Source: Paralvinella palmiformis (taxonomy: Eukaryota; Annelida; Polychaeta; Terebellida; Alvinellidae). From it: a DNA stretch of 64,000 nt. Made by a program: the position numbers and the translations under genes. The stretch is from contig JAODUP010000467.1 in assembly GCA_025642065.1 (NCBI GenBank), positions 491,001-555,000 on the forward strand. The letters run 5' to 3'. The notes beneath the pieces are model-generated. The model saw only the letters and a list, made by a program, of their open reading frames with translations. It made no database searches and was not told where the DNA came from. Of this stretch, positions 53,156-57,047 are shown in pieces (position 1 is the first letter of the stretch; every line of letters begins with the position of its first letter).

Positions 53156-54286
53156 TCGATGAAAAGCTATTAACCAATAGGCCTTGTATATATAGCTTAT
53201 ATTTATCATCAATATTATTATTATCAGCAACAGCATTTTTTTTCTATTCATAACAATATTTGAAAAATACAAGCAAAAATACAAACAAAATTGATTCTAA
53301 AAACTAGGAAGTAACATAGGTCTATGCCTAGGCTATGGCTATGGCCCTATATAACATTAATACGTGCTAGTACGTGCACACATGTGTAAGAAATATTATA
53401 AACTAAACTATTATCATTGACTTATAACCATTAATTTTCACCATGTAACTTCATTTCAACGAACATTTGAATCGGGCGCATAAGTTGGTTTGATGATTAA
53501 ACGATAAAGCATTAATTTAAGTACGCTCTTAAAGCATTATAAGTACTCCTGACTCAGGAATAGAAACACTCCATCGCATCTCGAGCGGTGGCATTGGACA
53601 CAGCTCGTGTGGTTGGTGTGTTTTACATAACAAGTTTACTTGTATATATAATTCACCTTGGTTGTATGTGGGAATAGATTTATCTTTCCTAGGTCCAGTT
53701 ATGTCCAGTTTGTACTATGACATTCAAGATTAGCTCTAATCTGCTTGTCATAAATAACATTTAAGAACTACAATAGTTAGAATAGCATAAATTAGGTCAG
53801 GTTTGAAAATGATAACATAGTTCAAACAGTATCGAAGCTATGACGCGCTAATACGGTCTGCTTCAGCGCAGATGTCAGTCTTTTAATAGCAATTAAGCTA
53901 AATAGTTTTAATAGTAGTCGCTTCGTGACGCCTGCCCGTTGTAAAAACTGATCTTTGAAGAAGGTAACAATTGGGTTATATAGTTTATATAGTATTGCTT
54001 TGAAGAAAGATACAGCAATTGAAAAATAACTATAAATAGGGCTGCTTAGATAATTAAGCTAAACATTCTCACTACTGCCGTGATCTGACTTGGGTGTTTT
54101 ACACCCAAACTCCACGGCTGTAGGTGATTCGTATTTTGATTATGCTTGGCGGCTTAGGGACTGGTGAGACATTACACATGTCTCAGCAAGAAAAGTCGCC
54201 ACTCTGGATTCATTCCCTGAAGAAACGTCCAGAGTTTGAATTCACGGTTCGAGATTCTCTGTGCCTGTGCCTTATTATACACAGCT

Positions 54287-54289
<3 letters not shown>
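53156..54289. other. Intergenic stretch without identified features
   Basis: AT-rich with short patches such as GTGTTTTACACCCAAA near 54090 (a small inverted repeat). No coding signal. Confidence 0.5.

Positions 54290-54356
<67 letters not shown>
54290..54356. repeat. (AC)n microsatellite
   Basis: A pure AC run of more than 60 bp, the longest of its kind in the window. Confidence 0.97.
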
Positions 54357-54357
<1 letters not shown>

Positions 54358-54756
54358 ATATTAAGTAGATATCCAAATAATATTCAAAGATATATTCAGT
54401 ACAAGCGGTGAATTAAAACATGAATCCAGCAAAAGTGAAATGTGTGTGGGTCCACACAATGTCAAATGATAGGTGCACACTTATTAAGGCAGTTGGTATC
54501 CATACTGTTTAAACCTGGATATAAATACATGTAATACACTAACCTTGAACGGCAGTTTGTGAACCTGATACAGTTATAAGCAATGTCATTGATGAATTAC
54601 AGCATACATAGATTACATCAGCTAAAAATAATTACTAATTCATGGATGTGTGATGATAAAATAAAAGTTTCATGTCATACATGAAGTGAAATATGTTTGA
54701 TAGTCAATCAATAGTTTAATGTTAGTATCGAAACACATTCATCAGAAATATATTAA

Positions 54757-56006
54757 CTAGCATTGTGTTTTTAGCTCAGCCCTTACTCTCATCAATAAAT
54801 CACCCATGAAATTTTTACCTGACGACATGTTCTGGTCATGTACATTAGGATTCTCTAGACGGAGTCCTATTCCCCAGAGTCTGTCGGTGGAAGCCACACC
54901 TAGCACCTTATCACCGGTAACTAACAGGTAGGACAGCATCTTTAGATTCTGCCGAAACTTTTCTTTTAGAGCTGGGAGAGCTAGTTCCTTGGCTTCTAAG
55001 AACCACTGTTGAGTATTACCTTTGATGGACTTGCCCATTTGCTTGATGACACTTGGATTCTGCTGAGAGCGAATTCCTGCTGCTGTTACATCATCACCCA
55101 TAACCTCGGCCTTACTGTGCTGGATAAATTGTTCCATATTAGTGTAGGTCGTGTTGTTGATCCTGAACATGGTGTAGAAATTGCTTAGGAGACTGTATCG
55201 ACCAAAGAAGCACAGTTAATTTTTATTTTCTTTCACACATGCCAGTTCAGGATTACAGTTGCATGGTAGCTCTTTCCTTTGATCAACACTGTATAATCGA
55301 CTATCAATTTTCACTTTATTTGCTAACATTGATGCCTGGGCTCCTGATGCTCTGGCTGCTTTCAAGACTGTCATTAAGACCCCTCTATTTTTTTTTCTTC
55401 CTCAGGCAGGTCTTCATTCAGGGAGTACTTCTTACCCTTCATTTTCCTCCTGGCTTCCCAAACAGTTTGTCTGTCAGACAGATATGGAAACCGGATAATG
55501 ACTGGGCGTGGGCGGGTTATACTGGATTTGTCCATTCCGTGGATGGTTTGGAAGATCATTTTGTCAGAATCTGGTACTCCTAGCTCACTTATAATGGTTC
55601 GCATTTTGGCTTCTAGAGGCTGCTCATTTTCTTCGATATTGAAGAAGATGAGATTACTGCATCTGGAGTAGCACTCAATCTGGTTTACCTTATCGATAAG
55701 TGTTTTGTTGGACTGCTGTAAATATTGGTTTTGGACTTTAAGGCGTTCCACGTCATCTTTCACGCCTCTCAGATCGTTAGATATAGCACTGATTTTATGA
55801 TTTTGTTCTTCTCGCATGGCGCGCGTTTCCGATTGGACATCTTTGACTTTCTCTTTGATAGAAGCAATATCAGGTTCAAGTCGCTTCAACATCTCGGTGA
55901 TGAATGTCAATTTATCCTCACCATCACTTGTCTGAGACACATTTATGATGTCACTGTCCATTTGAGATGATCGCGTTTTTCGTGGCGAAAAATTACTAAA
56001 AGACAC
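54757..56006 (-). pseudogene. LINE ORF1-like coiled-coil/RRM protein leading into a NADAR (YbiA-like) domain, broken frame
   Basis: The 5' part (55374-56006) encodes an L1-type ORF1: a heptad-rich coiled coil (roughly residues 25-115), an RRM-like segment containing NLIFFNIEEN, then a basic RPRPVIIRFPYLSDRQTVWEARR block. The first ATG in frame is at 55961; nothing upstream before a stop supplies another. After a run of nine A residues (55388-55396) the frame shifts and the ORF1 C-terminal domain continues (RGVLMTVLKAA). A TAA then precedes FFGRYSLLSNFY. This opens an essentially complete NADAR domain ending at 54757, with conserved MEQFIQHSKAE, KFRQNLKML, WGIGL and KNFMGDLLMRVR. NADAR enzymes hydrolyse riboflavin intermediates or ADP-ribosylated guanine; activity here is not shown. 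No reverse transcriptase follows downstream. It may be a decayed copy of a fused gene, or an active one with sequence errors. Confidence 0.75.
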
Positions 56007-57047
56007 TGTGCTTGGGTCGACGATGTCGGTTTAAGTTGAACGCGAGTGAGCGATAATAGGGTTGATATAACAGTATACCTTTTGACCGTTCTGCAACTGT
56101 TACACAATATATACGCAGCTTATTACAAGCTCCGTTCAAAGCATAACGTTTATCCACAGAATCTGTTTAGTCCGTGATCACAATAACATTGTATTTGTCC
56201 ATAAATTGGCATTGATTTGCAGAGAATTTTGAATTTGTTTACTAGGTGTCCATGTTGATCACGTGGAATGATCTGTGTTCTGGATGAACGACAGTTAATT
56301 ATTATTACAGCCTTAATGACAAAGACACAGACGGGCCCATTGGCTTAAAAGAAAACTAGACCGAACACGACCGCCGACTTGATGGCAAACAGGTCCCAAC
56401 TTCCGGTCGAGGAAATAGGAACGCAGACTGGAAAAATCATGTTTATAAACGTGGTGAATTATTGTTGTAACGCTGGTTGCATAAGCCATGTTCGTGGAAG
56501 TAATACAAACTTTTCATCGGTAAGTTTAAGGAACACATTTAAAATAGCTGTTAAAGCGGGGTTTTTTTTGGCGGGAAATTAAGCTTAACTGTTATTCTAT
56601 TTAGCCTGTACGACAACCCCGGCCTATCTCTGGCGTTTGATCCCAATTAAACTAGATCTACGGACTTGAATAAAACGACTTTTACATATTTCATGGCATA
56701 TAATAGGAGAGGAATAATACAGATTGTCTGCTCACACAAAATTATAATGCACACATCACAATAAATGTCCGTATTCGTAGGTTCAAAACTCGAAGCGCAG
56801 CCGCTTCAACGCTGCTTTTTCCTTGCCGGAAGTCAGAGCTGTTTGGTCATGGCGGCCAATTCAAACGCTACTGACTGCTCGGTTTAGATTTATATTTAGG
56901 TCAATGGATGGGCCATAATGTAATTCTTCTCCACGGGAATGGTCTTAGATAAGATCTGGATAGCACAGTTGTGCCGTGCCACTATAGCGTGCGGTCTACC
57001 GGCACAATCACACAACTACACTCGAGGTTGACAAAAACAAATTTGTG
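56007..57047. other. Relatively GC-richer region upstream of the ORF1-NADAR frame
   Basis: Several CpG-bearing patches (for example near 56290-56420 and 56780-56880) contrast with the AT-rich surroundings, and could hold a promoter for the ORF1-NADAR frame. No exon or motif was identified. Confidence 0.4.

Follow-up and report, generated by a model that had tools for sequence, protein, structure and literature searches.

The stretch of DNA considered here (the window, 64,000 nucleotides of contig JAODUP010000467.1 of the annelid Paralvinella palmiformis) carries a decayed copy of a long interspersed nuclear element (LINE), the first open reading frame (ORF1) of which almost certainly encodes a coiled coil, an RNA recognition motif (RRM), and a C-terminal domain (CTD) fused to a C-terminal NADAR domain. 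The copy retains the whole 5' end of the element and the ORF1-NADAR region and has lost its 3' part. An earlier sequence-only reading had placed the unit correctly, with an extent that proves slightly short, and had proposed that an L1-type ORF1 and an essentially complete NADAR domain, interrupted by two breaks, were one protein. Table 1 gives the features of this copy and of related loci.

The ORF1-NADAR copy

The window copy is 5'-complete, since its terminal sequence is common to three other loci (L019, L027, and L032) and the flanks outside it differ and are unrelated at all four. Its low end lies in a (CA)n tract and so is placed only approximately, within 54289-54356. The first ORF1 frame has a candidate ATG at 55961. 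Of the two breaks, one is a frameshift, at an A-run between the two ORF1 frames; the other is a lone in-frame TAA (55216-55218), which parts ORF1 from NADAR in a frame otherwise common to both. Programmed frameshifting at the A-run, at the junction of RRM and CTD, was considered and rejected: the family-A copies compared are mixed, some in frame and some not, and a mutation hot spot is likelier.

The NADAR domain matches Pfam PF08719 at E 2.9e-29 (102.9 bits; curated cut-off 35.1) over positions 9-163 of the 163 in the profile, which places it in the NADAR superfamily and agrees with its description as essentially complete; the best solved structures are 8bau (E 2.3e-12) and YbiA 2b3w (E 0.0002). 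Within the stretch Glu28 and Lys35 are retained and Val107 (codon 54897-54895) stands in place of the third catalytic Glu; in the numbering of the P. nicotianae NADAR, E43 and K50 of the YbiA-subfamily triad are present and E125 is Val, leaving the triad incomplete. ORF1 of the window gave no match to the Pfam L1 ORF1 models at E 0.1; its identity comes instead from fused homologues and from the fold predicted for one of these (P0009). The spacer that follows is shorter than in L019, L032, and L034 by an internal deletion of ~550 bases, and no match to ORF2 was found downstream of ORF1-NADAR in the window. With a frameshift, a stop, Val for the third catalytic Glu, and no ORF2, the window copy is dead.

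Table 1. Features of the window copy, its neighbour, and related elements (positions are those of the window unless a locus is named)
Feature	Position or loci	Strand	Basis or remark
Decayed Jockey-like LINE copy, family A	56264 to ~54289	minus	blastn in pieces against L019, L027, L032, L034, 83-94%
Element 5' end ACGTGATCAACATGGACACC	56245-56264	minus	common to window, L019, L027, L032
ORF1, first frame	56030-55374	minus	from list of open reading frames
Coiled coil	~55922-55662	minus	limits moved over from P0009 model by alignment
RRM	~55653-55411	minus	limits moved over from P0009 model by alignment
ORF1, second frame (CTD and Cys-containing linker)	55401-55216	minus	terminates in TAA 55216-55218
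NADAR domain	55215-54757	minus	PF08719
ORF1-ORF2 spacer remnant	54289-54635	minus	blastn to relatives
Neighbouring young repeat, not LINE	53520-54356	not assigned	96.9% over 839 bp to L024
Family A	window, L019, L034
Family B	L012, L013, L016, L029
Family C	L011, L021
Family D	L009, L015, L025
L1-like family	L010, L014		collinear over 5.7 kb at 78-87%
Apparently intact Penelope-like element	L036:143-4437	plus	662-amino-acid first ORF with NADAR and 792-amino-acid reverse transcriptase ORF

Fused proteins and catalytic residues

A protein search with the read-through of the window frames gave five proteins (P0008-P0012), three of which hold a whole NADAR and parts of ORF1: P0008 (337 amino acids (aa), 69%), P0009 (398 aa, 61%), and P0010 (312 aa, 50%); P0012 stops within NADAR. 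A profile search gave 30 proteins, including P0013 (401 aa), P0014 (419), P0015 (487), P0018 (486), P0019 (445), P0020 (538 aa, 36 member sequences), and P0021 (505 aa). P0009, P0013, P0014, P0015, and P0018-P0021 are intact fusions in single ORFs: in several families one ORF encodes the whole fusion and keeps the NADAR catalytic residues, and the view that ORF1 and NADAR were one protein is borne out in these relatives. L034 contains a stretch identical to P0002, and L019 one identical to the final 120 residues of P0008; both proteins are therefore probably from the species of the window. No relatives were found in the viral and prokaryote contig collections searched with P0009 patterns.

The predicted model of P0009 has fold matches to human L1 ORF1p and to an oomycete NADAR. 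The coiled coil, RRM, CTD, and human L1 ORF1p fold together make the protein a Type II (L1-like) ORF1, so that both fused homologues and predicted fold agree with the L1-type assignment made earlier.

Glu275, Lys282, Glu354, and Asp358 (P0009 numbering) are invariant in all 13 aligned fused proteins, namely 12 of the 30 from the profile search and P0010; eight of these rows have a long N-terminal part, and in P0008, P0010, P0016, P0017, and P0022 the coiled coil is wholly or mostly missing. By alignment, Glu275, Lys282, and Glu354 correspond to E43, K50, and E125 of the P. nicotianae NADAR, residues tied to catalysis (numbering as in PMC11543638). Eight of the 18 profile-search proteins outside the alignment were inspected (P0011, P0024, P0026-P0029, P0031, and P0034). 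Two of them, P0034 and P0031, unite a Cys-rich part, zinc-knuckle-like by eye, with NADAR and a GDSL-like part, the GDSL match of P0034 lying below its cut-off.

Copies in the genome

A search of the 594-Mb genome gave at least 150 NADAR matches (364 candidates, of which 150 were scored), each exceeding the curated cut-off, and at least 112 matches to P0009 (482 candidates, of which 104 were scored). Besides the window, 27 loci were inspected: the 20 best-scoring others (L009-L028), L029-L034, and L036 (L035 continues L031; L001-L008 are shorter cuts of loci L009-L016). With tblastn queries drawn from some of the loci under test, ORF1 was found upstream of NADAR at 9 of the 20 best-scoring loci, and ORF1-like text was seen by eye at some others. 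Homology to endonuclease (EN) or reverse transcriptase (RT) lay downstream on the same strand at 15 of the 20, a count that includes L028, which is better left out since its NADAR is of host type; none was found at L017, L020, L022, L024, or L027, apart from the tail of one query, which matched L027 over a short length. Collinear ORF1-NADAR-ORF2 units form five families (Table 1). Both L019 and L034, of the window's own family, carry EN and RT homology downstream on the same strand, supplying the RT that the sequence-only reading had suggested looking for, and from the end of ORF1 as far as RT the two run collinearly, with insertions. At L027 (L027:2033-3707, reverse complement) ORF1-NADAR is joined to the probable 3' end of the element, ORF2 being absent; L027 is possibly a non-autonomous derivative or a deletion.

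An ORF1 remnant beside a host NADAR exon, or a domesticated host gene, might give a similar appearance, and this genome does contain host-like tandem NADARs (L033 and C1470) and a 936-aa NADAR ORF (L028). That explanation is scarcely credible: the joined unit recurs collinearly with ORF2 at independent loci and as single ORFs, and the host-like NADARs (L028 and L033) fall in a clade of their own (97/93). The pairing of ORF1 with NADAR is not a matter of chance, given at least 150 NADAR matches and independent loci with the same collinear unit; against segmental duplication of one locus stands the unrelated sequence beyond the 5' end.

Reverse transcriptase lineages and NADAR phylogeny

The RT tree groups L010 and L014 with human L1 (95/90) and families A-D in a separate clade (99/98) with other LINEs interspersed; L019 and L034 lie within a clade that is neither L1 nor R2 (99/98), and the RT of the window family, not grouping with L1, stands outside the Tx1/L1 line. 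We take the window family to be Jockey-like from its sequence motifs, the RT tree having no named Jockey, CR1, or L2 RT. L1 and Tx1 are not separated for L010 and L014, which are labelled L1/Tx1-like. Against solved structures in the PDB, the RT of L014 scores 76.1 bits to L1 ORF2p versus 17.8 to R2, that of L012 51 and 40, and that of L011 41 and 50. The comparison LINEs in the tree are labelled 'no NADAR' in the sense that none adjoins them among the NADAR matches listed, except for L022, with its RT ~2 kb upstream of a NADAR. NADAR-ORF1 goes with two kinds of RT in this genome, Jockey-like and L1/Tx1-like. Whole-ORF1 transfer or repeated capture may, either of them, explain its presence in both; elements of the Jockey group are described as having evolved reticulately, with possible transfer of whole ORF1s (PMC4120745).

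The NADAR tree, which the sequence-only reading had recommended, groups the window with P0009 in one clade. Its deep branches are weak (57/75) and long branches are present; L022, L017, P0008, and duplicate automatic rows of L031 and L033 were left out, and the NADAR of L021 was not retrieved by tblastn.

A second kind of element also carries NADAR. We take L036, from its sequence motifs, to be of the Penelope type with GIY-YIG. Its 662-aa ORF has NADAR at 66.8 bits; its 792-aa ORF matches RVT_1 at 41.1 bits and gave no Pfam GIY-YIG match at E 0.1. At least four 662-aa open frames with NADAR are present in the genome, and the two inspected, L031 and L036, differ at 4 of 662 residues. The Penelope-like NADAR groups with the host-like NADARs (99/97), which suggests a separate capture, with caution for a long branch flagged by the tree. 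It has His at the position of E125, the second Glu, as reported for phage NADARs (PMC11125620).

Within a Penelope-like copy an intact LINE ORF of 1306 aa (EN-RT-RNase H) is inserted (L035:928-4845, plus strand). Among the host-like NADARs, L033:2-1931 (reverse complement) holds ORFs with three tandem domains, nearly identical by look; tandem domains also occur in C1470, and L028 has its NADAR in the 936-aa ORF.

Proposed function

Packaging of element RNA by L1 ORF1p is well established (PMC5940361). The ORF1p of these elements would likewise trimerise and coat the element RNA, as the human L1 protein does, and its NADAR domains would then sit on the ribonucleoprotein. There they could hydrolyse ADP-ribose off guanine in element RNA or nascent complementary DNA (cDNA), so that marks put on by guanine ADP-ribosyltransferases of the host are reversed and the template can still be read. 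NADARs are reported to hydrolyse guanine-ADP-ribose in DNA (PMC11543638) and in RNA (PMC11833690), and clams have a guanine ADP-ribosylating activity on DNA (PMC11209040); action of NADARs on products like those of clams is so far an assumption (PMC11543638). That ORF1p-borne NADAR strips host-laid guanine ADP-ribose from element RNA or cDNA is a tentative proposal, with odds somewhat short of even, built on a predicted activity. Anatomy and function taken together as a single statement are given a probability of roughly 0.5.

Several observations weigh against this combined reading. The window copy itself is non-functional, and P0011 is an ORF1 without NADAR though it is 95% identical to P0009. 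Of 23 LINE rows from the genome, 15 have the full catalytic triad; the other 8 lack it, L022 and L025 because sequence is missing, and both L1-like loci (L010 and L014) are without the catalytic Lys. The ratio of nonsynonymous to synonymous substitution rates (dN/dS) is 0.50, 0.77, and 1.18 for family-A ORF1, and for family-B NADAR it exceeds 1 in 5 of 10 pairs, is undefined in 1, and is 0.47-0.74 in 4. The ratio is 0.41-0.75 for family-A NADAR (10 of 10 pairs), 0.86 for family-B ORF1 (one pair), 0.42-1.00 for NADAR of families C and D and the L1-like loci, and 0.49-1.43 for EN and RT; dN/dS is weak evidence here because the copies are young and decaying. Residue invariance across distant proteins is a better argument than dN/dS. 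Finally, riboflavin intermediates or small ADP-ribose derivatives may be the NADAR substrates instead.

On this last point, NADAR might remove soluble ADP-ribose immune signals or harmful riboflavin intermediates, the fusion serving only for co-expression. Soluble ADP-ribose derivatives have been proposed as the preferred substrates of viral NADARs, and riboflavin intermediates are substrates of YbiA (PMC9503650; PMC11543638); identical catalytic residues would serve. A fusion is unnecessary for mere co-expression, however, and the joining of NADAR to an RNA-binding protein, seen alongside both kinds of LINE RT and in distant proteins, suggests action on nucleic acid; a small-molecule role is judged unlikely. 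NADAR might also be a binding or assembly module that acts without catalysis, as the missing Lys of L010 and L014, the replacement at L030 of Lys by Arg and of the second Glu by Gly, and the His of the Penelope-like NADAR would allow; the invariance of the three catalytic residues in 13 of 13 aligned fused proteins argues otherwise, and such a role is judged quite improbable.

The proposed removal of guanine ADP-ribose by the fused NADAR can also be framed more broadly, with the hydrolase as a counter-defence module that retroelements of this animal lineage acquired recurrently (Jockey-like, L1/Tx1-like, and, separately and from a host-like NADAR, Penelope-like) and that would erase host guanine ADP-ribosylation of their RNA or DNA, thereby disclosing an animal defence against transposons based on ADP-ribosylation of nucleic acid; in that general form the idea is doubtful.

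Neighbouring features

The young repeat at 53520-54356 meets or overlaps the window copy on the broken 3' side of the latter, at the common (CA)n tract; this repeat, with its (CA)n tract, has further matches in L016 and L027. Upstream of ORF1-NADAR on the same strand, 62975-59216 (minus) contains decayed EN-RT LINE remnants of a different element. The region 51460-21085 (minus) contains ORFs that resemble, judged by eye, exons of an SMG1 kinase gene.

Relation to known systems and significance

Among the papers listed in PMC literature searches, one was recognised as dealing with NADAR in retrotransposons, PMC12477816, which in one sentence and a supplementary figure describes Tx1 LINE ORF1s of Crassostrea gigas with NADAR, seen in Repbase, and suggests processing of RNA intermediates. 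These oyster elements share with the window family a LINE ORF1 with a YbiA-family NADAR (PMC12477816); they differ in that the RT of the window family lies outside the L1/Tx1 line. Neither Jockey-like LINEs nor Penelope-like elements with NADAR are mentioned in the portion of the text of PMC12477816 that was searched, its supplement and Repbase lying outside the search. The same report describes NADAR in Gypsy elements of the brown alga Ectocarpus, further retroelements with the domain; in contrast to the window family these are long terminal repeat elements with NADAR at the N-terminus of Pol, possibly through horizontal transfer as its authors suggest (PMC12477816).

Type II ORF1s, known from L1, CR1, L2, and R1, have the same coiled coil, single RRM, CTD, and human L1 ORF1p fold (PMC4120745), to which the window family adds a C-terminal enzyme domain; extra domains given for Type II ORF1s are PHD and esterase, and the word NADAR is absent from the main text of that paper (PMC4120745). 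The DarT1-NADAR toxin-antitoxin system and the P. nicotianae NADAR share fold and catalytic residues (PMC11543638) but are not joined to a retroelement RNA-binding protein. SNA-3, a nematode trans-splicing protein with three NADAR domains, is an animal NADAR that works with an RNA-protein complex and requires its own catalytic-site residues; unlike the LINE proteins it is encoded by a host gene without ORF1 and is described as nematode-specific (PMC9303266).

The physiological role of animal NADARs has been described as unclear (PMC11125620). That several retroelement lineages have NADAR on their RNA-coating proteins, with the catalytic residues retained, points to a concrete role open to testing, in which ADP-ribose would be taken off element RNA or DNA. 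If this is true, animals would use guanine ADP-ribosylation to defend themselves against transposons, and the guanine-ADP-ribosylating enzymes of clams would have a purpose.
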